From: Pseudalgibacter alginicilyticus | GTDB lineage: Bacteria; Bacteroidota; Bacteroidia; Flavobacteriales; Flavobacteriaceae | Length of the DNA: 64,000 bases | Assembly: GCF_001310225.1 (NCBI RefSeq) | Contig: NZ_CP012898.1 | Location: 930,001-994,000 of the forward strand | Reading direction: 5' to 3' | Shown here: positions 49,462 to 61,372 of the stretch, piece by piece | Position numbering within the stretch: the first letter of the stretch is position 1 | Layout of the letters: each line of letters starts with the position of its first letter | Program-made: the position numbers and the translations under genes | The notes under the pieces: model-generated | What the model saw: only the letters and a program-made list of their open reading frames with translations | What the model was told of the DNA's origin: nothing | The model's database searches: none

Positions 49462-49546
49462 GCGCACGTGGCGGAATTGGTAGACGCGCCAGCTTGAGGG
49501 GCTGGTATTCGCTTAGAATGTGGAAGTTCGAATCTTCTCGTGCGCA
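49462..49546 (+). tRNA. tRNA-Leu (anticodon GAG), integration target
   Basis: 85-base class II tRNA: acceptor GCGCACG / CGTGCGC, anticodon stem CCAGC / GCTGG around TTGAGGG, a long variable arm (TATTCGCTTAGAATG region) and T arm with GTTCGAATC. Discriminator A, no encoded CCA. Its last 12 bases are part of the 15-bp direct repeat that bounds the integrated element, so the gene was left whole by the integration. Confidence 0.97.
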
Positions 49547-49549
49547 CTT
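49535..49549 (+). repeat. Left attachment site (attL core)
   Basis: TTCTCGTGCGCACTT, overlapping the T-stem/acceptor 3' end of tRNA-Leu; the base before is C here and A at the right copy, which fixes the left limit of the identity. Identical to 56394-56408. Confidence 0.9.
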
Positions 49550-49623
49550 TAAAAAAACACAACACATTAACAATCAACCTATTACAAATAAACCTTCTTT
49601 ATATTTGCACACAAATTGAACAC

Positions 49624-49651
49624 AAAAAAAAAGAGGGCTATAAAACCCCCT
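49624..49651 (-). terminator. Terminator at the left end of the element
   Basis: On the minus strand a stem of GGG with CCC, extended past one mismatch (arms 49632-49637 and 49646-49651), is followed by nine Ts. It stops leftward transcription of the lipoprotein gene before it reaches tRNA-Leu. Confidence 0.65.
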
Positions 49652-49738
49652 ATAATTGTTCAAATATTCTCACTACAATTACATAGCTGAAAAATAAAAG
49701 TACGTAAAACATCTTTAATTTTATTTACACACCTTCTT

Positions 49739-50368
49739 TTATTCAATTATTTCTTCTTTTACAAATTCTGTTTGTTCAGGGTTAGTATAAAGCACTTTAT
49801 CAAAAGTTTGCCTTACATTACTTAACATCGGATTATTTATAGAATAATTAGCAATATATTTTGATGTTAAAATTGAATCGGGTTTTTCCGAAAGTGCTGT
49901 ATAATATTTTTCAAGTTTATTGACCCTGTTTAGTACAATTTTATAATCTGTCAATTTTTCCAAAGCCTTATCTCTTTTATCTTCAGACTCATATTTATAA
50001 CTATAATCACTAATTCGTATGGCAGTCAGCACAGCTTCTTGGTAAAGTTTTTGCATTGTATCTTGGTGGGCTATTGATTTTGTTAGAACTTTTTTAACAT
50101 AATCAAAGCTTAACGTATCAATTAAACTTTGCTCTGGGTTTTTATTCCAATACTCTGCAAACTCTTTTTTTATAATAGGCAAACTATCTGAAGCATTAAT
50201 ATCTGACATTTTTTCAATTTTATTAATACTAAAATTCATATCTGCTAAATCAAAATTTAAAGATTTAACGTTTTTCTGTTGGTAATCATAAAGCATCTGT
50301 TCGCCTTTACTTTTACCACAAGAAAACAAAAGCATTGCTACGGTCAATAAAATAAAACTTTTTCTCAT
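49739..50368 (-). CDS. Lipoprotein cargo gene at the edge of the element
   Basis: 209 residues, not a family I recognise. Signal MRKSFILLTVAMLLFSCGKSKG has a good lipobox (LFSC, Cys17). The mature part is mainly helical and charged (NINKIEKMSDIN-like start, QKLYQEAVLTAIRISDYSYKYE, DYKIVLNRVNKLEKYY). It is separated from its upstream neighbour by 148 bases with a terminator, and has its own terminator at the element end, so it looks like an independent cargo unit. Exclusion of other phages or elements is one possible job, from position only. Confidence 0.7.
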   Translation of the reverse strand: MRKSFILLTVAMLLFSCGKSKGEQMLYDYQQKNVKSLNFDLADMNFSINKIEKMSDINASDSLPIIKKEFAEYWNKNPEQSLIDTLSFDYVKKVLTKSIAHQDTMQKLYQEAVLTAIRISDYSYKYESEDKRDKALEKLTDYKIVLNRVNKLEKYYTALSEKPDSILTSKYIANYSINNPMLSNVRQTFDKVLYTNPEQTEFVKEEIIE

Positions 50369-50470
50369 TTAGTTAGTGTTTTATGGTTAAATTAAAATGT
50401 AAGATAATTCTTTTTAATTGAAAAATCTTACTGTTTTCATCAATTGTTTTATTTTAAACTCATTATAAAT

Positions 50471-50500
50471 AAAAAAGGAGAGCATCAATCCCCCCTTTTC
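50471..50500 (-). terminator. Terminator after the 50517-51125 gene
   Basis: AAAAGG (50473-50478) pairs with CCTTTT (50494-50499), extended with mismatches toward the loop; on the minus strand the hairpin is followed by Ts. It closes the main leftward transcript of the element. Confidence 0.6.
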
Positions 50501-50516
50501 CTGTCTAAAAAAAAAT

Positions 50517-51125
50517 CTATTGTTTCAAAACACCTAATTCATTAGGATAAAACTTAGACTCTCCCTTTGTGCTATGAATATTATTTTCAGTTCCGTATCT
50601 AATATTTTTAAAATAATTGATTATTTCACTTTGTCCATGTGTTATTAAGTTTAAGCCTAATAAAGTATTTAAGTGCTTACATACTTCTTTTGCTTCGTTA
50701 AAAGCGTCTATTTGCTTATCATTTGAAGCGTAATAATAATGTCTTCTTACTTCGGGTAATTTATCCAAATCCTTAATAGCAAATTTTCCTTTATCTAATT
50801 CAGGACTTAAACCTATCCAGCTTCTATTGTTCTTTTTCCAATATGTTTCGATTGTCTTTAAATCAATTCCCAAAGCTTGTAAATTAAAAACTTCATCTGC
50901 ATCAGGAAATTTAAACTTTGGTTTAATCCATTGTTTCACAAAAATTATTCCTTCATCCTTTAAATTACTCTTTTCATTATCCGTAAAAGATGTTTTTAAA
51001 ATGGTTTCTGTAAATTTCACAAAATCATTTAACAAATCTAATTTGTCAACAATTCCTTTTTTAGTGTTTTCAATTGCGGTTTTATTTACTCTAATTAAAA
51101 CCTGTTTTTTTTGTTCTACTATCAT
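50517..51125 (-). CDS. Unknown protein of the integrated element
   Basis: 202 residues, soluble, no recognised domain. N-terminal region is basic and helical (KKQVLIRVNKTAIENTKKG, LLNDFVKFTETILKTSF), the centre has several aromatic residues (TYWKKNNRSWIGLSP, RRHYYYASNDKQID) and the C-terminal part contains FKNIRYGTE. It is the last gene of the main transcript before the terminator at 50471-50500, starts 18 bases after the 51143 gene, and reads in the same direction as the replication genes. Confidence 0.65.
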   Translation of the reverse strand: MIVEQKKQVLIRVNKTAIENTKKGIVDKLDLLNDFVKFTETILKTSFTDNEKSNLKDEGIIFVKQWIKPKFKFPDADEVFNLQALGIDLKTIETYWKKNNRSWIGLSPELDKGKFAIKDLDKLPEVRRHYYYASNDKQIDAFNEAKEVCKHLNTLLGLNLITHGQSEIINYFKNIRYGTENNIHSTKGESKFYPNELGVLKQ

Positions 51126-51142
51126 TATATTAAAATTTAAAA

Positions 51143-51421
51143 TTATACGTGTTTGAATGTGGTAAAAAAAAGAACTGGAACTAAAGCTTTTTCATCATCT
51201 AAAACCTTTAAATTATTTTTCACCCATTGAAGCAATTCCCGCTTAGGTCTGTCTAAGTCTTGCGGCTTACTCTTATCTGCTGGCACAAATACAATTGGTT
51301 TTATTTTATTGCCTGTGTAAGCATTGATAATATCTTGCATCTGGTCAAAACTCAATTTCGGATGTGCTTCAAACAATTCTAAAATTTCTTTTGCATTGTT
51401 TAATTTTATTTGCTTATTCAT
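51143..51421 (-). CDS. Small unknown protein of the integrated element
   Basis: 92 residues from the ATG at 51421 (MNKQIKLNNAKEILELF); a start three codons earlier is possible. No known domain. The N-terminal 45 residues look helical (FEAHPKLSFDQMQDIINAY) and the rest holds VFVPADKSKPQDLDRPKRE. It overlaps the end of the preceding gene by 8 bases, so translation is coupled to the DUF5681-like protein and the two may act together. Confidence 0.6.
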   Translation of the reverse strand: MNKQIKLNNAKEILELFEAHPKLSFDQMQDIINAYTGNKIKPIVFVPADKSKPQDLDRPKRELLQWVKNNLKVLDDEKALVPVLFFTTFKHV

Positions 51422-51704
51422 AATCTTCAATATTTATTGTTACAAACCTCTCAAGTTGTTCGCCTCCACTCGTTATATCGATAGCGTTTAGTTTTGGTAA
51501 AACAAAGGTCGCTAACTCCATTATTACTTTTAATCTGTCTTTAGGTTCGAGTTGATTTATATCATCCTGAAGACGTGTTAAATTACTTTCAACTAAAACT
51601 TTAAAAGCTTCTCGTGTTTCTACACTCATTTTATTACTCTGTCCTTTTCGGCTGCTTAATTTTCCAGCCTGTCTTGCTAATTCTTTATTATTCTTAAAAC
51701 TCAT
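51414..51704 (-). CDS. DUF5681/small-terminase-like protein
   Basis: 96 residues. A basic, glycine-containing N-terminus (ELARQAGKLSSRKGQSNK) is followed by a helical segment TREAFKVLVESNLTRLQDD and ELEPKDRLK-type turn (QLEPKDRLKVIMELATFVLP). This layout is like the small proteins that often precede the large terminase in Bacteroidota phages and in related elements. No large terminase is present here. A packaging-specificity role as in phage-inducible islands is an inference; a DNA-binding protein of other use is also possible. Confidence 0.55.
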   Translation of the reverse strand: MSFKNNKELARQAGKLSSRKGQSNKMSVETREAFKVLVESNLTRLQDDINQLEPKDRLKVIMELATFVLPKLNAIDITSGGEQLERFVTINIEDYE

Positions 51705-51727
51705 ATTTTCATGTTATTAATGCTACT

Positions 51728-52639
51728 TTAACGTATTTTCAATAGATAATCTGCTATATCTAAGCCTTGTTTTTTATCTTCTTTTGTTGCTTTATCTCTT
51801 ATTAATGTTGACATCTTAAACGTTGCTAAATGGCTTAATTGTGGCATCTTATTATTCCATATATCATAACATCCAGCATCAGGAAATAATACTACATTAC
51901 GACCTTTTAAAACCTTTGTATTAGTCTTATTAAGATTGTTTAAACCTCCACAAGCAAGCCATATAAATTCAGGTAAATAAACACTTGCTATTATTGCAGT
52001 TTTTTCGGATTCACAAATGGCAATTGGTTTTGATATATCTGTATTAATTAAATGTTCACCAAACAAACATTGTTTAAGATTGAAATTATCATGCTTTAAA
52101 ACCTTGTGAACCCAAGTAATATGACTATAAGGTTCTTTTACTCTCTTACCATTAATAGCATTATAAAGCATTATTTTACCCGTTCTAACTTTGTTGTTAC
52201 TATCAATTTGATAGAAAACATTTGCACCGTTCCAATGTTTTGAAGTACCTATTTTATAAACATCTGCTAATTCATTTGATACCTCTTTATTCCAATGATT
52301 GGTTAAAAAATCTAAAAAGTAATTAGGTGCTTTACTAGATATACTTTTAACCACTATATTATTATCAATATAACTTGGCTTTTCGTAACACTTTGTAACT
52401 GGTGTAACTCGTGTAACAGGTGTAACATTCTGTATATTATTATCACTTAAATATTGTTTTGGTGTATAGTGATAACCACATTTTAAAAGCCTATTACAAG
52501 CACCTACAACATCGCTTAAATGTTCATTTGTATAGGTATCAATATACTTAGTAAACACCCCTGATTTATTACACGCTGGGCAACGGTAACGAGTTTTTAT
52601 TCCTTTATATGGTTCTAATATGTATCTATAATCTTTCAT
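51728..52639 (-). CDS. Zinc-finger/Toprim primase-like protein (DUF6371-like)
   Basis: 303 residues. N-terminal zinc-binding-like region: TRYRCPACNKSGVF (Cys20, Cys23), then VVGACNRLLKCGYHYTPKQYL with two more cysteines. Toprim-like half from about residue 195: AICESEKTAIIASVY with the conserved Glu and VVLFPDAG with the Asp. Bacteroidota elements and phages carry such proteins next to RepA-type helicases. A linker at residues 72-82 repeats V-T-P/V-T-R, encoded by the 9-base GTAAC repeats. Likely replicates the excised element with the ATPase encoded upstream. Confidence 0.72.
   Translation of the reverse strand: MKDYRYILEPYKGIKTRYRCPACNKSGVFTKYIDTYTNEHLSDVVGACNRLLKCGYHYTPKQYLSDNNIQNVTPVTRVTPVTKCYEKPSYIDNNIVVKSISSKAPNYFLDFLTNHWNKEVSNELADVYKIGTSKHWNGANVFYQIDSNNKVRTGKIMLYNAINGKRVKEPYSHITWVHKVLKHDNFNLKQCLFGEHLINTDISKPIAICESEKTAIIASVYLPEFIWLACGGLNNLNKTNTKVLKGRNVVLFPDAGCYDIWNNKMPQLSHLATFKMSTLIRDKATKEDKKQGLDIADYLLKIR
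52385..52426. repeat. Iteron-like GTAAC repeats inside the primase-like gene
   Basis: GTAAC begins at 52385, 52395, 52404, 52413 and 52422, four of the five in exact 9-base steps, with spacers such as TGGT, TCGT and AGGT. The minus-strand reading frame turns these into VTPVTRVTPVT. Same core and phase as the array at 52651-52700. Confidence 0.75.
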
Positions 52640-52650
52640 CCTTTATAAGC

Positions 52651-52700
52651 GTAACACCCGTAACAAGTGTAACAGGTGTTACGACTGTTACGACTGTTAC
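52651..52700. repeat. Iteron-like array: three GTAAC then three GTTAC in 9-bp phase (possible origin)
   Basis: GTAAC begins at 52651, 52660 and 52669, and the inverse GTTAC at 52678, 52687 and 52696, all in unbroken 9-base steps with 4-base spacers (ACCC, AAGT, AGGT, GACT, GACT). The array fills the gap between the primase-like gene (start 52639) and the stop of the ATPase gene (52697). The position between two replication genes and the symmetry suggest a replication origin or an autoregulatory operator. Confidence 0.7.
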
Positions 52701-53824
52701 GATTTACTATATTTATCTAAAGTTCTTTTAACCTTCATTTTGTTAGTTCCTAGTTGCTTGGCTATATCTCCAAAACTTATATTCGGATTACTACTTTTCA
52801 ACTCAATAATATTTGATTCTAACATTTCTTTATCTTCTTTTGATACCTGTCTTAAATGTTCATTCTCATTACCATAATCAACAAATTCAAATTCTAAAAA
52901 GTTATGAGGCTTATCTATTTGACAGACTGCAACATTTTCAGTATCGTATATAATTTCTGTGTTACGTGCTTTAATTTGTTTAATATATCTAAGCTGTTTA
53001 TCTGTATTACTTTCACCTATAGAAAAACAAATAACTACAAAGTTTATAAGCATTTTACTACCAGCTAAATCATTCCTAGTTATAGGCTTAGTTAAATCTC
53101 TTTTGGGCGTATGTGCTAATGCTAAAATTGAAAGTCCGTATTTACTTTTTAAAGCTTTTAAATGCTTCATTAATGGCAAAGCATCTTTAGACTTTTCAGT
53201 TTCATTTTTTAGGTAAGTAAGATTATCTATTATTAGAATTTTTGCATCTGTATCTATTATACTACGTTCTAATGAATTGTTTAGATAACTCTCAAAAGTT
53301 TCATTTGCTGGTATATCTGCATCAGGATTAATTTCTACTCTAATAAAATTGTCATCAAAATTATAATGCTGGTCAAAATTTATAGAATATCTATTTTCAA
53401 ATTGTTTATCTGAAAGTTCAAAATCAAAATATAAAATAGGTTGTTTTATAGCTTCTAAAGTAAAACCATTTATAAACTCGCCTTTACTTATACTATTACC
53501 TATTTGCACAGCTAATATAGATTTACCTAAATTAGTATCTGCAAACAGAATACAAAGTTCATTTTCAAACCATAGTTCACCAAATAACATTTTTGGTATA
53601 GGTCTTGTTTTAGCTAATTCAATCCATTTATTAGCTGGCTTGACAGTAAACAAACCTTTACTTTCATCTGAATTTAGAAACCCATTTTCTAAGGTTTCAA
53701 CCTCGGTTAAAAGGTCATCAATTCCAATACTTGAATTTTCTTGTGCAACCGTAACTAATTGATTATATTTGTCTTGTATATTAGGAATTGCATTATTAAG
53801 ACTATGAATATTTGCTGTGTTCAT
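52697..53824 (-). CDS. RepA-like/AAA_25 hexameric helicase-type ATPase
   Basis: 375 residues. RecA-like core: a Walker A variant FADTNLGKSILAVQIG, near residue 95, in which the first Gly is Ala; LYFDFELSDKQFENRYS; Walker B ILIIDNLTYLK; and LSILALAHTPKRD followed by DLAGSKMLINF. This is the pattern of RSF1010 RepA-like replicative helicases. A C-terminal helix-turn-helix (ISFGDIAKQLGTNKMKVKRTL) could bind the repeats next to its stop codon. Follows the HTH gene by 5 bases. Confidence 0.8.
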   Translation of the reverse strand: MNTANIHSLNNAIPNIQDKYNQLVTVAQENSSIGIDDLLTEVETLENGFLNSDESKGLFTVKPANKWIELAKTRPIPKMLFGELWFENELCILFADTNLGKSILAVQIGNSISKGEFINGFTLEAIKQPILYFDFELSDKQFENRYSINFDQHYNFDDNFIRVEINPDADIPANETFESYLNNSLERSIIDTDAKILIIDNLTYLKNETEKSKDALPLMKHLKALKSKYGLSILALAHTPKRDLTKPITRNDLAGSKMLINFVVICFSIGESNTDKQLRYIKQIKARNTEIIYDTENVAVCQIDKPHNFLEFEFVDYGNENEHLRQVSKEDKEMLESNIIELKSSNPNISFGDIAKQLGTNKMKVKRTLDKYSKS

Positions 53825-53829
53825 AGTCT

Positions 53830-54117
53830 TTATTTATTTAATGCATTAAACAAATCTGAACGCTTATAGAGACGTTTACCTCCTATAGTTAAGCTGTTTA
53901 CTTTACCTGATTGTTCGTACCTCCAGAGGGTGGTAATAGAACATTTTAAAATATCTGAAGCCTCTTTTGGTGTAAGAAGGTCATCAGGATTATTTTTAGG
54001 TAAATCCTGTTTTAGAAGTTCTGCGGTTGCTTGTACCGTTTTAGGAATTGAATTTTGTACAGCTTCATTTACTAAGTGCTGTAAATAGTCTTGTAGGTTT
54101 ACATTAAAATTTGTCAT
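53830..54117 (-). CDS. Excisionase-like helix-turn-helix protein
   Basis: 95 residues. C-terminal MerR-type HTH_17 domain: LLTPKEASDILKCSITTLWRYEQSGKVN, then IGGKRLYKRSDL, the usual pattern of excisionase-family proteins. The N-terminal half is a helical segment (LQDYLQHLVNEAVQNSI). It heads the replication genes and has an inverted repeat upstream, so it may control excision and replication together. Confidence 0.82.
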   Translation of the reverse strand: MTNFNVNLQDYLQHLVNEAVQNSIPKTVQATAELLKQDLPKNNPDDLLTPKEASDILKCSITTLWRYEQSGKVNSLTIGGKRLYKRSDLFNALNK

Positions 54118-54193
54118 ATCGTTTTATGTTTTAATTCGATAAGACAAATATATCTTGCAATACTATGTAATTAACTGAATGTCAGTTGTTTAA

Positions 54194-54228
54194 AATTGTC
54201 TTAATTGTTCTAATTAATTAAGACAATT
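54194..54228. repeat. 13-bp inverted repeat upstream of the excisionase-like gene
   Basis: AATTGTCTTAATT (54194-54206) and AATTAAGACAATT (54216-54228), exact inverse, 9-base loop; it touches the stop codon of the 54227 gene. A third TAAGACAA lies at 54140-54147 nearer the HTH start at 54117. It can be a terminator for the integrase transcript (short T-run on the minus strand) or an operator for the HTH gene. Confidence 0.6.
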
Positions 54229-54910
54229 AAACGAGAGTATTTTCTTTAATAATTGCGTCGATTTGCTCTTTGATAATTTTGTAAGTCGTTGGGTCGGGTG
54301 TATTATCTCTAAAGAATTTATCAAAGTTTTGTTTTTTTTGTACAATAGGTTCAATTGCTTCTGTAAATGATTCGCGATACTCAATATTTGAAGCTGGCTT
54401 TAAGTATAGTCTATCTTTCAATACCATTATTAGATGATTAAAAGTTTTAGCTTCTACACCTTTGTATTTTTCATTTAAAATCTTCAGGAATTTAGCCTTA
54501 TTTTCATCTAATTGAAATTTATCTAAATACCAAATAGCATTTTTTATTTCGGTTTTTGGTCGTCCACTTCTTTTAGCTGGCTTTGATGGTGTTGGTTCCT
54601 CAAACTTTGAAAGTTTATAAAATTCCTCTTTATCAATTAACCAATTTTCTAAAAATTCAATCTTGTGATTAATTAAATTACAAATATTAGAATAATAAGC
54701 ACCTTCTAAATTTTCATATTCATTTAGTCGTAAATAGATACTAGGTAAATATTCTTTTCTAACATATTTAACAAACTTCTTTTTATTAGGAATATCACTA
54801 AAAGTAAAATACATTTTTTCTTCGTAATTATTGTATTGATACCAATCACTAAAAACAACATCTAAAGCTTTATGAAAGTCCTTTATTTTCATATAATTAT
54901 TGTTTTGCAT
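54227..54910 (-). CDS. Unknown protein encoded next to the integrase
   Basis: 227 residues; an ATG six codons in (54892) would avoid the 14-base overlap with integrase. No family recognised with confidence. N-terminal half is acidic and aromatic (FSDWYQYNNYEEKMYFTF, SIYLRLNEYENLEGAYYSN), a basic link (KRSGRPKTEIKNAIWYL) follows, and the C-terminal half is helical. Such genes often accompany integrases of Bacteroidota elements; RteC-like regulators sit in the same place but the sequence does not fit them well. Confidence 0.65.
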   Translation of the reverse strand: MQNNNYMKIKDFHKALDVVFSDWYQYNNYEEKMYFTFSDIPNKKKFVKYVRKEYLPSIYLRLNEYENLEGAYYSNICNLINHKIEFLENWLIDKEEFYKLSKFEEPTPSKPAKRSGRPKTEIKNAIWYLDKFQLDENKAKFLKILNEKYKGVEAKTFNHLIMVLKDRLYLKPASNIEYRESFTEAIEPIVQKKQNFDKFFRDNTPDPTTYKIIKEQIDAIIKENTLV

Positions 54911-56201
54911 TTATTAATTGTTCGTAAGCATCAAAGACAAGGTCTTTTTTACCCTTTTGAATATAATTTAAAAATTGCGCTTCTGTGCTGTGATTGGTGA
55001 TACCTATTAAATAAGTAGTAGGTAATTTACCATAGTAGTTTGTAGAAAAACTCCTACGTCCAATATGACTTGATACAAGTTCCCATTTTTCAAAAGTTCC
55101 TTCTAAATCTCTATAATGATTTTTTGTTGGTTTAACTCCTTCAGGTGCTACACAGACACGTTTTTTACCTTTTGTCTTTTTATTAATACCAGCCTTTTCA
55201 CATACAACTTTTATATAATCGTTATACTTTTGGTCTGATATACGTCTTGGAAATTCCCCGCCTCGTTTATCTAAAACACTCATTACTTCAGGCAATAAAG
55301 GAATTGCAGTTTCTTTACCTGTCTTTACTTGTGTAAATTCTATTATAGGAACATTCTTTTCTAATCTTACCATAGATTTATTAAAGCGCATAAAATCACT
55401 TACACGCTGGGCTGTATAACAGGATATAATAAGCCAATCCCTTGCATTATCTAGTGATTCTGTTAAACCTTCTAATTCCTGAATTTTAGTTAAATCAGTA
55501 AAAGTTAAATACACTTTTGGAAACTTTACTTTCTTAATTGTCAAACCTTCTGTTTCAGGCGAAACCTCTACACCTTTTAACCTAGCGTGTTTACATAATG
55601 ATTTGATATAAGCAAATTCCCTTTGTGCTGTATTCACCGAATATTGATTTGCTGTATAGTAATCTAATAGCCTATTTTTAAAAGTGCTGTTAACGTCTTT
55701 AATTAAATAGTGTTTACCTTGTGAAGCTTCAAATCGTAAAAGTTTATTTTTAATAACACCCCATTTTTTTACAGCGTTTAAACTTAAATCACTTCCCCTG
55801 TCGTTTTTATAAAAATCAATATATTCTATAAGGTGTTCAGGAATTACTATTTCAATTTCAGGTTGTGGAGGGTTGTAATACTCGTGCACTGTTTGAAGTA
55901 ACCATTCTTTATTTATAATTGATTTGTCTTTTACACTTTTATAAGCATCTAAAATATGTTCGCTTATTTCTTTTTTAAGTGTGTCAAGCTTTAACGCTAA
56001 ACCTTTATTAATTCCTGAAAATTTAGTTCCTGTTTGGTATTTATCCCAAAAAACCTTTAAGACTTCAAATTTAGTAGATGCATAAATAGATTTGCGCTTT
56101 TTAGTATCTTCCTTTTTAGTACCTTCTAAGTAAGTAACTAATCTAACTTGAATATTAGCTTCCTTTTTTGTAGAACGGTAAGCAAATGCAATTGTAGCCA
56201 T
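54897..56201 (-). CDS. Tyrosine-type site-specific integrase
   Basis: 434 residues of the Bacteroidota phage-integrase type: N-terminal arm-binding region (residues 1-100), SAM-like core-binding domain (LIEYIDFYKNDRGSDLSLN, FAYIKSLCKHARLKG) and catalytic domain. Catalytic residues: Arg in CYTAQRVSDFM, Lys in TQVKTGKETAIPL, His-x-x-Arg in VSSHIGRRSFSTNYY, second His in GITNHSTEAQFLNYI with the nucleophile Tyr. It lies 193 bases from attR and explains insertion in tRNA-Leu. Confidence 0.95.
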   Translation of the reverse strand: MATIAFAYRSTKKEANIQVRLVTYLEGTKKEDTKKRKSIYASTKFEVLKVFWDKYQTGTKFSGINKGLALKLDTLKKEISEHILDAYKSVKDKSIINKEWLLQTVHEYYNPPQPEIEIVIPEHLIEYIDFYKNDRGSDLSLNAVKKWGVIKNKLLRFEASQGKHYLIKDVNSTFKNRLLDYYTANQYSVNTAQREFAYIKSLCKHARLKGVEVSPETEGLTIKKVKFPKVYLTFTDLTKIQELEGLTESLDNARDWLIISCYTAQRVSDFMRFNKSMVRLEKNVPIIEFTQVKTGKETAIPLLPEVMSVLDKRGGEFPRRISDQKYNDYIKVVCEKAGINKKTKGKKRVCVAPEGVKPTKNHYRDLEGTFEKWELVSSHIGRRSFSTNYYGKLPTTYLIGITNHSTEAQFLNYIQKGKKDLVFDAYEQLINAKQ

Positions 56202-56236
56202 TATATGATATATTTGAACATATCAAAGATAATTTA

Positions 56237-56280
56237 TTGTGCACAAATAACACAAAAATTGTGCACACAATTGTTAACAA
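56237..56280. repeat. TTGTNNACAA palindromes between integrase and attR
   Basis: TTGTGCACAA at 56237-56246 (perfect palindrome), TTGTGCACAC at 56259-56268, and TTGTTAACAA at 56271-56280 (perfect palindrome). The first two are 22 bases apart, two helical turns. Their position suits integrase arm-binding sites or an operator for the integrase gene, which starts at 56201. Confidence 0.6.
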
Positions 56281-56393
56281 ATGAAAACACCTGAAAAGAC
56301 AAACAGAACAAAACACCCTATAAAACTTTATTTTACTGCAATTTATAGAATATTAAAAACACTTGAAAATATATGAAAATTTAATTTGTGTTA

Positions 56394-56408
56394 TTCTCGT
56401 GCGCACTT
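56394..56408 (+). repeat. Right attachment site (attR core)
   Basis: TTCTCGTGCGCACTT, identical to the attL copy at 49535-49549, with diverged sequence on both sides. Excision by recombination would place tRNA-Leu about 80 bases before the MerR gene. Confidence 0.9.
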
Positions 56409-56484
56409 ATAAATCATTTTTATCCCCCTTTTTTAATTCATTTATTTTTTTTACGTAATATTGTTTAATATTATTTAAAATAAA

Positions 56485-57384
56485 ATGAACAATATTAAGA
56501 CGCATTTCAGTATTAAGGATTTAGAAAACCTTACTGGGATAAAGGCACATACCATCCGCATTTGGGAAAAGCGTTATAATCTATTGAGCCCAAATAGGTC
56601 CGACACTAATATTAGAAACTACAGTTTAGAAAGTTTTCAAAAACTTTTAAACATTTCTTATCTAAACAATAATGGTATTAAAATTTCTAAAATTGCAAGC
56701 TTAGAAGAAAATCAAATTCCTATTAAAGTAAGAGAAATAGCTTCAAGAAGTAAAGCAGAAGACTATGCCATAAATGCTTTTAAATTGGCCATGGTAAACT
56801 TTGACCAAGTTCTTTTTTACAACACTTACAACAACTTAATTGAAAATAAGTCTTTTAATGACATTTTTTACAACATATTTCTTCCTCTATTAAATGAAAT
56901 TGGTTTGCTTTGGCAAACAAATACCATTACCCCTGCACACGAACATTTTATTTCCATTCATATAAAACAAAAAATACTTATTAACATTGAACGAATACAA
57001 ACGTTAGACCCCAAACCAAAATCTAAAACTTTCGTACTCTTTCTACCAGAAAATGAAATACATGACATTGGGCTGCTATTTATTAATTATCAATTAATTA
57101 GCAAAGGATATCATAGTATTTTTTTAGGAGGAAACATTCCTATGGAAAGTTTAACAGATCTGTTTACTTTTTTTGATGACATTACTTTTATATCTTATTT
57201 TACCGTAAGCCCTGAACTGGATGCCATTCCTAACTACATCAATAAATTTAACAACATGTTGTTAAAAGACAACAAAACAAAACTCCTGCTTTTAGGCAAA
57301 AAACTTAATCATCTCAATACAATTGAGCTACCTAAAAAAGTAATACGATACAATTCTATAGAAAGTCTAATTGAAAAATTATAA
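56485..57384 (+). CDS. MerR-family regulator with B12-binding domain (CarH/LitR-like)
   Basis: 299 residues. MerR DNA-binding domain at the N-terminus (FSIKDLENLTGIKAHTIRIWEKRYNLL). The C-terminal half looks like a cobalamin-binding module: W143-x9-E153-H154 (LWQTNTITPAHEH) and E191-x-H193-x-x-G196 (ENEIHDIGLL), the two motifs that bind coenzyme B12 in the CarH light sensor, followed by a Rossmann-like fold (GYHSIFLGGNIPM). It lies directly before the crt genes and probably represses them in the dark. The residue after the Trp is Gln, where the Thermus CarH has His as far as I recall. Confidence 0.85.
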   Translation: MNNIKTHFSIKDLENLTGIKAHTIRIWEKRYNLLSPNRSDTNIRNYSLESFQKLLNISYLNNNGIKISKIASLEENQIPIKVREIASRSKAEDYAINAFKLAMVNFDQVLFYNTYNNLIENKSFNDIFYNIFLPLLNEIGLLWQTNTITPAHEHFISIHIKQKILINIERIQTLDPKPKSKTFVLFLPENEIHDIGLLFINYQLISKGYHSIFLGGNIPMESLTDLFTFFDDITFISYFTVSPELDAIPNYINKFNNMLLKDNKTKLLLLGKKLNHLNTIELPKKVIRYNSIESLIEKL

Positions 57385-57398
57385 AAATAAATTATTTT

Positions 57399-57430
57399 TT
57401 GTTTAATTTATTTTTATATTTGTTAAACAA
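57399..57430. promoter_or_regulatory. Operator-like repeats ahead of crtI
   Basis: TTGTTTAATTTA at 57399-57410 and TTGTTAAACAA at 57420-57430; their starts are 21 bases apart, two helical turns, and the second is an inverted repeat apart from its central base. A further TTGTTTAATA lies at 56461-56470, 15 bases before the MerR gene. The copies at both the regulator and the structural genes suggest binding sites for the MerR protein. The crtI ATG is at 57432. Confidence 0.5.
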
Positions 57431-57431
57431 A

Positions 57432-58901
57432 ATGAATAAAACAATATCTATAATTGGCTCAGGTTTTTCTTCACTATCAGCTGCGTGCTATTTAGCTAAA
57501 GCTGGCAATGATGTAACTGTATTTGAAAAAAACGAAACAATTGGCGGTCGTGCCCGACAATTTAAAAAAAAGGGATTTACTTTTGATATTGGTCCTACTT
57601 GGTACTGGATGCCTGATGTTTTTGAACGATTTTTTTCTGATTTTAATAAACAGCCTTCAGATTATTACACATTAGAAAAACTAAATCCTGCTTACAGTGT
57701 TTATTTTGGAAAAGAAGATTATATAACCATTGAAGATACATTAGACAAAATACTAAAAGCATTTGAAGTAGAAGAAAAAGGAAGTTCTAAAAAACTTAAA
57801 ATATTTATAGAACAAGCTAAAAGCAATTATAACATTGCCATCAAAGATTTGGTTTACAATCCAGGGGTTTCACCTTTAGAACTAATAACTCCTAAAACCA
57901 TTACAAAACTTAATCAGTTTTTTAGCACCATTAAAAAGGATGTTAGAAAAGAATTTAAAAATGAACGTTTAGTAAAAATTCTTGAATTCCCTGTTTTATT
58001 TTTAGGTGCAAAACCTAGCAACACCCCTTCGTTTTATAATTTTATGAATTATGCTGATTTTGGAATAGGAACCTTTCATCCCAAAAAAGGTATGTACCAA
58101 GTTATTTTAGCTTTAGAAGCATTAGCTAAAGAATTAGGGGTTAAAATAAAAACAAATGCGCCCGTTGAAAAAATATTAGTTAATGATGATGGTAAAGCTA
58201 CGGGAATAATTTCCAATAAAACCATTTACAACGCAGATATAGTACTTAGTGGCGCAGATTATCATCACTCAGAAACACTTCTTGATAAGCCTTACAGACA
58301 ATACTCTGAATTGTATTGGAACAAAAAAACATTCGCTCCTTCTTCATTATTATTTTATATTGGTTTTGACAAAAAGCTAAAAAATGTAAACCACCATACA
58401 TTATTTTTTGATGTAGATTTTGAAATACATGCCGAAGCCATCTACGACACCCCTAAATGGCCAGAAAACCCATTATTTTACGCAAGTTTTCCTAGCTTAA
58501 CAGATAATAGTTGTGCCCCAAATGAAAAAGAAGCTGGTATTTTTTTAATTCCATTAGCACCAGGATTAAAAGACACAACTACGCTAAGAGAAACTTATTT
58601 CAATAAAATAATAACAAGATTTGAAAACTTAACCTCTCAAAAAGTAAAAAAACACATTATATTTAAGGAATCCTTTTGTGTTAACGATTTTGTAAAAGAT
58701 TACAATTCATATAAGGGAAATGCATATGGTATGGCAAACACACTCATGCAAACCGCTTTTTTAAGACCTAAAATGAAAAGTAAAAAAGTAAAAAACCTCT
58801 TTTTTACTGGTCAATTAACAGTTCCTGGCCCAGGTGTACCGCCTTCACTAATTTCAGGAAAACTGGTAGCTGATTTAATAAAAAAACATCATAGTAACTA
58901 A
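57432..58901 (+). CDS. crtI: Phytoene desaturase
   Basis: 489 residues from the ATG at 57432 (MNKTISIIGSGFSSLSAACYL); an in-frame TTG at 57399 would put the operator-like repeats inside the gene. FAD-binding GSGFSSLSAA with VFEKNETIGGRARQF, TFDIGPTWYWMPDVFERF, and C-terminal FFTGQLTVPGPGVPPSLISG, all diagnostic for CrtI-type desaturases. Converts phytoene to lycopene. First gene of a tight four-gene operon. Confidence 0.95.
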   Translation: MNKTISIIGSGFSSLSAACYLAKAGNDVTVFEKNETIGGRARQFKKKGFTFDIGPTWYWMPDVFERFFSDFNKQPSDYYTLEKLNPAYSVYFGKEDYITIEDTLDKILKAFEVEEKGSSKKLKIFIEQAKSNYNIAIKDLVYNPGVSPLELITPKTITKLNQFFSTIKKDVRKEFKNERLVKILEFPVLFLGAKPSNTPSFYNFMNYADFGIGTFHPKKGMYQVILALEALAKELGVKIKTNAPVEKILVNDDGKATGIISNKTIYNADIVLSGADYHHSETLLDKPYRQYSELYWNKKTFAPSSLLFYIGFDKKLKNVNHHTLFFDVDFEIHAEAIYDTPKWPENPLFYASFPSLTDNSCAPNEKEAGIFLIPLAPGLKDTTTLRETYFNKIITRFENLTSQKVKKHIIFKESFCVNDFVKDYNSYKGNAYGMANTLMQTAFLRPKMKSKKVKNLFFTGQLTVPGPGVPPSLISGKLVADLIKKHHSN

Positions 58902-58911
58902 TTTTATAAAT

Positions 58912-59751
58912 ATGAAAGCTTTATTTGATACCATATCGTATGATTGTAGTAAAATTGTTACTAAAACATATAGTACATCATTTTCATTAGCTACAAAAAT
59001 GCTATACAAATCCATCAGAAAAGATATTTATAACATCTATGGCTTCGTAAGATTTGCTGATGAAATTGTAGATTCTTTTCATGATTATGACAAAGAAACA
59101 TTGTTCAACAATTTCTCAAACGATTTAGAAGATGCGCTTCACAATAAAATAAGTCTGAATCCAATACTAAATTCTTTTCAACACACTTACCATCAATATA
59201 ATATTGATAAAGAACTGGTAGATGCTTTTTTGCACAGTATGCGCATGGATTTACACAAATCAACATATCTTGCAGAATCAGATTTTAAAAAATACATTTA
59301 TGGGTCTGCTGATGTTGTTGGACTTATGTGTCTTAAAGTTTTTGTGAAAGGAGACAAATCTAAGTACAACGAATTAAAAGAAACAGCTATGGCTTTAGGT
59401 TCTGCATTTCAAAAAGTAAATTTTCTTAGAGATTTAAAAGCTGATTTTGATGATTTAAATAGAAGCTATTTCCCTAATATCGATTTAAGTAGATTAGACG
59501 AAACCTCTAAAAAAACCATCATTGAAGATATTGAATCCGATTTCAACAAAGGTCTTTCTGGTATAAAAAAATTGCCCATAGAAGCTAAATTTGGAGTTTT
59601 TATGGCTTATAGATATTACAGTCAACTACTAAAAAAACTAAAGAAAACGCCTGCTTTACAAATTAAAAATACACGCATTCGAGTTTCTGATCCAAAAAAA
59701 ATGGAACTTTTAATGCGTAGTTATGTAAAATATCAACTAAATTTAATGTGA
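58912..59751 (+). CDS. crtB: Phytoene synthase
   Basis: 279 residues, squalene/phytoene synthase family. First Asp-rich motif YGFVRFADEIVDSFHDYD, second NFLRDLKADFDDLNRSYFP. Joins two geranylgeranyl diphosphates; the crtE gene for that substrate is not in this window. Starts 10 bases after crtI. Confidence 0.95.
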   Translation: MKALFDTISYDCSKIVTKTYSTSFSLATKMLYKSIRKDIYNIYGFVRFADEIVDSFHDYDKETLFNNFSNDLEDALHNKISLNPILNSFQHTYHQYNIDKELVDAFLHSMRMDLHKSTYLAESDFKKYIYGSADVVGLMCLKVFVKGDKSKYNELKETAMALGSAFQKVNFLRDLKADFDDLNRSYFPNIDLSRLDETSKKTIIEDIESDFNKGLSGIKKLPIEAKFGVFMAYRYYSQLLKKLKKTPALQIKNTRIRVSDPKKMELLMRSYVKYQLNLM

Positions 59752-60220: not shown

Positions 60221-61372
60221 GTGAATATGATTGATGAATTTCATTTTGATTATATCATCATAGGAAATGGTTTGGCTGGTTTGCAATTGGCACTAAAAAT
60301 GACTTCTGATTCGTTTTTTGATAATAAGCAAATAGCTTTAATAGATGTTTCAGAAAAAAAAACCAATGATAAAACCTGGAGTTTTTGGGAAACAAAACCT
60401 TCACAATGGAATGATTTAACCTACAAAACATGGGAACATGCAACCGTTATAACATCAAAAAAAAATATTGATTTAAATTTAAAACCTTATCAGTATAAAT
60501 CTATAAAATCTATTGATTTTTACAGACACTCCATATCAAAACTAAAAAAGCATTCTAACATTCATTTTATAAAAGAGAAAGTCTACTCGGTAAATGAAAG
60601 TAAGCAAGCACTAGTTAAAACAAATAAAAACACTTACACTTGCAATCATGTGTTTGATAGTAGAATTCCAAATATTTCTTCAGGACAAATTAAAAACTAC
60701 ACTTATTTAATTCAACATTTTAAAGGTTGGGTAATTAAAACCAACACAGCTGTTTTTGATAACAATAAAATCACCATGATGGATTACCGGTTAAAAGATG
60801 GTGAACAAACTACATTTACATATATTTTACCTTTTTCAAAAAATGAAGCCTTAATAGAGTTTACTTATTTTACCGAAAACACTGTAACCGAAGCTATTTA
60901 CGACACATACATTAAAACATATATTGATACGTATTTAAAAATAGAAAACTATACTGTTATTGAAACTGAAATGGGACAAATCCCTATGACCAATTTCCCT
61001 TTTTATAAATACAACACAAAAAAGACTACCAAAATAGGCACAGCTGGTGGCTGGGTTAAAGGGTCTACTGGGTATTCATTCAAACATACCGAAAAAAAAG
61101 CAGCTATTATTATTGGTAATCTTAAAGCAAACCGAATACCTTCACACAACTTATTTAAAAGTAAATACATGTTTTACGACAAGGTGTTTTTAAAAGTCTT
61201 AAAAGATGAAAACTATAAAGGGGAATGGATTTTTCAGCAATTTTATGATAAAAACTCCATACAAACCATGTTTCGCTTTTTAGACGAAGAATCCTCTTTC
61301 ATTGAAGAAATTAAAATTATGTGGTCTTTATTCTCATGGAGTTTTATTAAAGCTTTTTTTAAAACACTTTAA
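60221..61372 (+). CDS. crtY: Lycopene beta-cyclase
   Basis: 383 residues from GTG 60221, or 381 from ATG 60227. FAD/NAD-binding start DYIIIGNGLAGLQLALKM, the cyclase block NDKTWSFWETKPSQW, IQHFKGWVIKT, the MMDYRLKDGEQTTFTYILPF segment and TAGGWVKGSTGYSFKHT. Makes beta-carotene from lycopene. Last gene of crtIBZY; no ketolase (crtW) gene follows. Confidence 0.94.
   Translation: MNMIDEFHFDYIIIGNGLAGLQLALKMTSDSFFDNKQIALIDVSEKKTNDKTWSFWETKPSQWNDLTYKTWEHATVITSKKNIDLNLKPYQYKSIKSIDFYRHSISKLKKHSNIHFIKEKVYSVNESKQALVKTNKNTYTCNHVFDSRIPNISSGQIKNYTYLIQHFKGWVIKTNTAVFDNNKITMMDYRLKDGEQTTFTYILPFSKNEALIEFTYFTENTVTEAIYDTYIKTYIDTYLKIENYTVIETEMGQIPMTNFPFYKYNTKKTTKIGTAGGWVKGSTGYSFKHTEKKAAIIIGNLKANRIPSHNLFKSKYMFYDKVFLKVLKDENYKGEWIFQQFYDKNSIQTMFRFLDEESSFIEEIKIMWSLFSWSFIKAFFKTL

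Follow-up and report, generated by a model that had tools for sequence, protein, structure and literature searches.

Organization of the locus

The window analysed here, a stretch of 64,000 nucleotides of Pseudalgibacter alginicilyticus (contig NZ_CP012898.1, positions 930,001 to 994,000), contains a gene for a 299-residue CarH-like regulator of the MerR type, referred to below as carH, which is followed on the same strand by carotenoid genes (Table 1). The ORF named crtZ gave no family match. The first-pass annotation had placed a CarH-like protein at the head of a crt operon, and this assignment is upheld by the motifs of the protein, its match to Thermus CarH and the position of crtI directly 3' of the gene. 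Although the listed crtI ORF opens with a TTG codon at 57399, the conserved N-terminus begins at ATG 57432, which is the likelier start. This ATG would have the -7-like box only 17 nt upstream, and the crtI message, if made from that box, would be nearly leaderless.

Conservation was assessed with 167 distinct flavobacterial homologues (identity of at least 42%) out of 219 distinct rows, their orthology being judged from identity and place in the operon. One part of the rows came from the best 80 of 592 matches and another from entries selected in ranked lists of limited length, and close relatives are over-represented among them. A crtI ORF lies on the same strand within 400 nt 3' of the gene in 162 of the 167 homologues. 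Three rows from metagenome bins (L175, L179 and L185) were counted as flavobacterial on sequence grounds. These bins, titled Klebsiella pneumoniae, Rhizobium and Bifidobacterium breve, respectively, carry the flavobacterial-type gene at 53-55% identity and are probably mislabelled or mixed.

Upstream of carH, a 6.9-kb integrative element (49535-56413) apparently sits in a tRNA-Leu(gag) gene and ends about 70 nt 5' of the carH ATG. Of 16 relatives inspected (L115-L127, L130, L133 and L136), 11 have the end of tRNA-Leu(gag) no more than 300 nt from carH and four have it 2.5-4.7 kb away; none was found in the locus of the remaining one. Because of this variable distance, the junction of tRNA-Leu and carH appears to be a hotspot for insertions.

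Table 1. Features at the carH-crt locus and in the element upstream (window positions)
Feature	Position	Strand	Basis or remark
tRNA-Leu(gag) 3' end and downstream copy of 20-nt direct repeat	49535-49554; 56394-56413		18/20 identical; first copy over tRNA-Leu 3' end
DUF6371/zinc-ribbon protein	51728-52639		within 6.9-kb element
AAA_25 helicase-like protein	52697-53824		within 6.9-kb element
Excisionase-like HTH protein	53830-54117		within 6.9-kb element
Integrase	54897-56201		within 6.9-kb element
carH -7-like box TAATATTG	56456..56463	+	one mismatch to TAnnTTTG; 29 nt 5' of ATG
Candidate operator TTGTTTAAT	56461..56469	+	predicted; overlaps carH -7 box
carH-like MerR regulator with AdoCbl-type B12-binding domain, 299 aa	56485..57384	+	open ORF, family profiles, alignment, predicted fold
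Gln144 codon (Thermus CarH His132 equivalent)	56914..56916	+	ORF position, alignment, homologue survey
Candidate operator site 1, TTGTTTAAT	57399..57407	+	predicted; carH-crtI gap
Second -7-like box TATATTTG	57415..57422	+	just 5' of crtI
Candidate operator site 2, palindrome TTTGTTAAACAAA	57419..57431	+	predicted; overlaps -7-like box TATATTTG
crtI/crtID, phytoene desaturase	57432..58901	+	NF058655, 727 bits over 640
crtB, phytoene synthase	58912..59751	+	PF00494
crtZ, carotene-hydroxylase-like ORF, 149 aa	59762..60211	+	putative name, from position and His-rich stretches
crtY, lycopene cyclase	60221..61372	+	PF05834

Sequence motifs and predicted fold of the regulator

The Pfam search of the 299-residue protein gave matches over the cut-off for MerR_1 (PF13411, 2.6e-13) and B12-binding_2 (3.1e-9) and no match for PF02310 (B12-binding). 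On re-reading the translation, we found both B12 motifs that the first-pass annotation had reported: W143 followed after nine residues by E153-H154 (W-x9-EH), and E191-I-H193-D-I-G196 (ExHxxG). They are not chance occurrences, because W143, E153, E191 and H193 are invariant in the 167 homologues (as is G271) and H154 is retained in 163 of them. The MerR recognition motif RxWERRY is present as R25-I-W27-E-K-R-Y31, with Lys replacing one Arg. A search of the same genome with the protein at E 0.01 returned no second match besides itself.

By sequence, the top solved relatives were the Thermus thermophilus CarH (TtCarH) entries (3whp/5c8d; phmmer E 6e-14). The alignment pairs W143-Q144 with W131-H132, E153-H154 with E141-H142 and H193 with H177 (numbering as in PMC10442372, in part). 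The equivalence of Gln144 to His132, which the first-pass annotation had proposed, is thus confirmed. The best NCBIfam match, the equivalog TransRegCarH, reached 66.6 bits, well below its cut-off of 400.

The predicted model, built from a 20-row alignment, has a mean pLDDT of 87.9 and ends with a Rossmann fold. It matched full-length CarH in Foldseek with E 1.3e-14, and its B12 domain could be superposed on about 190-210 residues of those of the photocobilin SasPcob (Z 20.1), CtMerR (Z 19.8) and TtCarH (Z 19-20). For TtCarH and the photocobilin, the rmsd was 2.5-2.8 across 191-202 residues. MetH, AppA and AerR also appeared in the structure lists at Z 16-17; therefore, the fold alone is no proof of CarH function. 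Judged from the sequence, the regulator likely binds B12.

The protein departs from textbook CarH in several features, and we therefore call it CarH-like. The pair that forms the dimer salt bridge of TtCarH, which we take to be Arg176/Asp201, is absent; the residues are Ile192/Asn217 here and Ile/Val and Ser/Thr/Asn in the homologues. The GG motif is incomplete (Leu270-Gly271, with Leu at 270 in 139 of the 167), and in place of the SxT/V motif Ser237-Tyr-Phe lies one residue off the x41 spacing. The His that follows the Trp in TtCarH is replaced by Gln144, at a site that differs among published photoreceptors. The signature of light-responsive cobalamin-binding domains (GxxW, EH, GxxH and GxxxP; PMC11796333, in part) is present in its GxxW (G140), EH and GxxxP (G215, P219) elements, and the GxxH element has Asn190 for Gly (Asn in 141 and Gly in 4 of the 167 homologues). 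The protein most likely works like CarH.

Promoters and candidate operator sites

Promoter-like sequences were counted in 160 rows with a usable start codon. TAnnTTTG was found 20-60 nt 5' of the start in 146 of them (shuffled mean 6.4, maximum 14), with 128 matches at exactly 29 nt from the start; a -33-like TTG lay at the expected spacing in just 51. TTTAA extends the box, each position being conserved at 92-97% (87-96% in 76 thinned rows), and a C comes next in about half of the relatives. As a background, TTWAA followed 2 of the 65 other promoter-like boxes counted in a 400-kb sample of the genome. A scan for sigma-70 promoters and terminators gave nothing above chance.

The unit TTGTTWAA, in either direction and within 150 nt upstream, was found for 131 of 166 flavobacterial homologues (shuffled mean 10.9), for 4 of 10 flavobacterial paralogues or distant rows, for 9 of 34 rows mostly from other families of the same class (L195-L228; shuffled mean 1.2, maximum 6) and for 25 of 226 ORFs in the genome sample.

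In the carH-crtI gap of the window, TGTT cores start at 57400 and 57421, a spacing of 21 nt, and the second lies inside TTTGTTAAACAAA. Among 158 relatives with a findable crtI start, 72 gaps contain a pair of TGTT[TAG]A cores. The spacing is exactly 21 nt in 67 of these gaps, against a mean of 0.86 and a maximum of 4 in shuffled gaps; 18 gaps have one copy and 68 have none. The pair occurs in 35 of 41 gaps from relatives with at least 70% identity, in 25 of 80 at 55-70% and in 12 of 37 below, and is mainly a feature of close relatives. A matrix derived from thinned carH upstream regions scored at least 14 in 72 of 158 gaps and in 0 of 158 random windows, the latter being drawn from the Pseudalgibacter genome and not from the genome of each relative. 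The matrix alone is not specific, since the highest-scoring (19.0; L253) of five places reaching 14 or more in 400 kb of the genome is inside an ORF. Exact TTTGTTNAACAAA occurs in the window only at 57419, and with two mismatches it is not enriched there (20 found, 30 expected).

Intergenic TAnnTTTGTTWA sites were also seen near 6286 of L250 (minus strand; score 15.2), preceding a response regulator, and near 4489 of L246 (plus strand) and 11428-11456 of L255 (minus strand), preceding two other ORFs. They are possible further targets or chance occurrences.

The TTGTTWAA-type and TGTT sites are candidate operators through which the CarH-like protein may regulate its own gene and the crt genes. 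A CarH direct-repeat consensus, nAnnTnnACAn, is quoted in PMC8156234 (in part), and TGTnnA is the reverse complement of its TnnACA core, a weak match of four bases. The motif upstream of carH and crtI could be just a promoter class, so that the conserved TAnnTTTGTTTAA would be a sigma-factor-specific promoter and not the operator of a regulator. Indeed, TAnnTTTGTTTAA includes the flavobacterial -7 box (consensus quoted in PMC3587595), and two other genes in the 400-kb sample carry similar sequence after their -7 boxes. However, the TTWAA extension is rare after other -7 boxes, as counted above, and the upstream copy of the 21-nt pair can stand without a -7 box (for example, in L006 and L008). 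We regard the promoter-only explanation as unlikely, if a serious one.

Residue 144 and the axial His among homologues

Of the 167 flavobacterial homologues, 161 have Gln at residue 144, 4 have His and 2 have Leu. The first-pass annotation had considered Gln after the Trp unusual and had named, among the findings that would count against it, a wrongly assigned position at which Gln is ordinary; the position was assigned correctly, but Gln is indeed ordinary in this group of CarH-like proteins. As the usual residue among flavobacterial relatives, Gln144 is ruled out as an oddity or defect of this protein. The other 50 Bacteroidota rows were counted apart; they comprise 10 flavobacterial paralogues or distant rows, the 34 rows L195-L228 and 6 far rows. 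Their residue at this site is Gln (10), Leu (8), Gly (6), Thr (4), Ile (4), Met (3), Arg (3), His (2) and others.

His is found at the site in five flavobacterial rows (L073, L084, L093, L158 and L164), and crtI lies beside the gene in all of them. In a quick tree of 133 rows, which was built without the site-144 column and favoured non-Gln rows, L073, L084 and L093 were separated from one another among Gln rows (L158 and L164 had been thinned out, and L093 is a long branch of unsure placement). Since the His rows are scattered and keep crtI, His and Gln seem interchangeable without a change of the operon.

The axial His equivalent to H193 is lost in none of the 167 homologues and is lost in four rows from other families of the class (L212 and L225-L227). 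In these four it is replaced by Ser, Ala or Gln, and L227 also has Tyr for the Trp; they are possibly B12-independent paralogues.

Cofactor supply

The genome encodes one PduO-type adenosyltransferase, four methylmalonyl-CoA-mutase-type matches, one of them with an internal stop, and a MetH-sized B12-binding ORF. Among 397 genomes of the family, a CarH-like match was found in 322 (by hand count, 293 at E 1e-60 or better and 29 more distant) and an adenosyltransferase (PF01923) in 367; the genomes without a match include 55 and 10, respectively, that are not named individually and were taken to be those absent from the lists. Both genes are present in 315 genomes, only the CarH-like gene in 7, only the transferase in 52 and neither in 23. 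The adenosyltransferase thus accompanies 315 of 322 carriers and 52 of 75 non-carriers (Fisher p 7e-13, a value that ignores phylogeny).

Four of the seven carriers without PF01923 have mutase genes (G008, G048, G062 and G374), and the carrier G148 has a marginal CarH-like match (7.4e-6, one internal stop). The other type of adenosyltransferase was found in 0 of 16 genomes searched, which cover all seven. Two small genomes of one genus (G064 and G279, rows L110 and L109; one 99% and the other 96% complete) retain an intact CarH-like gene, and no adenosyltransferase of either type and no mutase was detected in them; a MetH-sized B12 ORF is present in G064 and absent from G279. The co-occurrence fits AdoCbl use, with an exception.

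These two genomes bear on the idea that the protein regulates without B12, as CarA and class II LitR do, and reports light through a partner protein. B12-independent family members exist (PMC9304148 and PMC9758184, in part), and the unmatched PF02310, the incomplete GG and the absent dimer salt bridge point the same way. According to the same partial sources, however, CarA has lost the Trp and class II LitR has only the helix bundle, whereas the Trp, the Glu, the axial His and a full predicted Rossmann fold are retained here. Moreover, the axial His, although lost elsewhere in the class, is kept throughout the 167 homologues. B12 independence is therefore improbable.

Light-state chemistry

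Illumination of TtCarH makes His132 the upper ligand of the cobalt, and the H132A variant reaches a hydroxo-Co(III) state and was largely tetrameric in light in one study, in contrast to an earlier report of disassembly (all from PMC10442372, in part). The mostly tetrameric state implies that loss of the His can block the switch in TtCarH. AdoCbl photoreceptors with Arg, Gln or Tyr at the His132 site have been published (PMC11796333 and PMC10979010, both in part). In the same excerpts, light splits the CtMerR tetramer (Arg at the site) into monomers with hydroxocobalamin (PMC11796333), and SasPcob (Gln at the site) has a water- or hydroxide-ligated, monomeric light state; without bilin, SasPcob is a monomer in both dark and light. 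Part of PMC9304148 describes the W-x9-EH cap as crucial for photoreceptor activity and the His after Trp, which gives the bis-His upper ligand, as present in "many" myxobacterial CarH proteins. By analogy, the Gln144 protein would likely have no bis-His lit state, and our best prediction is a light response without bis-His ligation. The two types of lit state differ in their absorption peak, which is at 359 nm in TtCarH (bis-His) and at 352 nm in TtCarH H132A (hydroxocobalamin type).

The first-pass annotation had suggested a changed lit state or a B12 sensor instead of a light sensor. As a B12 sensor, the protein would bind AdoCbl and keep crt repressed under abundant B12, and light would play no part in vivo. 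Residue 144 is indeed not the His used in the Thermus lit state, and the light-stable tetramer of TtCarH H132A agrees with such a role. However, AdoCbl is photolabile on its own and the W-x9-EH cap is intact. The B12-sensor suggestion is unsupported and its probability low, because relatives are light-responsive even with Arg (CtMerR) or Gln (SasPcob) at the site, their final state being aquo- or hydroxo-cobalamin. That another residue replaces His132 as the lit upper ligand, most simply His152, which precedes E153, is very improbable: this position is His in 159 of the 167 homologues and Glu in Thermus CarH, but His152 is also present in rows with His144 (L073, L084, L158 and L164), so there is no sign of a swap.

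No flavobacterial CarH study was found in the open-access literature searched. In the excerpts available, a paper on Chryseobacterium lacus describes light-induced carotenoids and speculates that a hypothetical gene beside crtB acts like CarA/LitR, and a Nonlabens paper lists a MerR gene first in the crt cluster.

Proposed mechanism

The gene product is most likely a vitamin-B12-based light sensor that switches on the adjoining pigment genes. We consider it probable that it is a flavobacterial CarH-like, AdoCbl-dependent, light-controlled repressor of the carH-crtIBZY operon. From the sequence, fold prediction, conservation, operon context, B12 genes and DNA motif, we infer cofactor binding, a light response, DNA binding and repression; light control of the crt operon, which the first-pass annotation had predicted, would follow from these.

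In the dark, the repressor would bind AdoCbl, with W143 and the E153-H154 pair capping the adenosyl group and H193, by homology, serving as the lower axial ligand. It would assemble on the TTGTTWAA-type sites, which overlap the -7 boxes of both carH and crtI, and this occupancy would repress the carH-crtIBZY operon. Light would break the Co-C bond; the adenosyl group would depart, the assembly would loosen, and the operon would be expressed. With Gln at position 144, the cobalt should finally carry water or hydroxide above it in the lit state, like the cobalamins of SasPcob (Gln) and CtMerR (Arg), and should not form a bis-His complex. Against the repressor reading stand the unmatched PF02310, the departures from the GG and SxT/V motifs, the absent salt bridge and the TtCarH H132A result, as well as the retention of the gene in G064 and G279.

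More tentatively, the Flavobacteriaceae may hold a widespread lineage of AdoCbl photoreceptors that lost bis-His ligation to another switch or never had it. Gln is nearly fixed after the Trp in this lineage, the dimer salt bridge and the first Gly of GG are gone, and the lit state would be aquo- or hydroxo-cobalamin, or ligated by the conserved His152; two promoters, that of the regulator itself and that of crtI, would be repressed through TTGTTWAA sites at the -7 boxes, with the pair at crtI 21 nt apart. We hold this composite proposal as plausible but short of likely. Most accounts of B12-photoreceptor chemistry centre on Thermus CarH, whose lit state is bis-His. If the lineage reading is true, B12 light sensing would not have bis-His ligation at its core, and such ligation would be a special case. 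If the lineage works with Gln, a light switch would be possible without bis-His ligation, and pigment control in many flavobacteria would depend on light and on B12 supply. We see the value of the result in this probable non-bis-His lineage of flavobacteria and in the operator predicted for it.

Comparison with known systems

Thermus thermophilus CarH (5c8d/5c8e/5c8f and 3whp) shares the domain order, W-x9-EH, ExHxxG and the predicted fold with our protein, and a phytoene/squalene synthase gene adjoins it as well. The identity in structural alignments is about 17-22%. The protein differs from it in having Gln for the bis-His residue His132, LG for GG and Ile/Asn for Arg/Asp, and its candidate sites are 21 nt apart, whereas Thermus CarH has tandem 11-bp repeats.

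The B12-independent paralogue CarA of Myxococcus likewise combines a MerR part with a B12-type domain and controls crt genes. It lacks the Trp of W-x9-EH (PMC9304148, in part), in contrast to W143, which is retained here and in 167 of 167 homologues. Class II LitR (PmlR2/PplR of Pseudomonas) resembles the protein in its MerR-type part, its B12-binding_2 match and its unmatched second B12 domain; it retains only the 4-helix bundle (PMC9758184, in part), whereas a Rossmann fold is predicted and H193 is retained here.

CtMerR of Chloracidobacterium thermophilum (8jbs/8jbt) has the same MerR and B12 domains and no His at the site, which is Arg instead of Gln; the identity over the B12 domain is 14%. 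The photocobilin SasPcob (8j2w/8j2x) differs in lacking a MerR domain and in possessing a bilin-binding globin domain that is absent from the 299-residue protein. However, it has Gln at the same site, and it gave the top structural row for the B12 domain, tied with the CarH rows.
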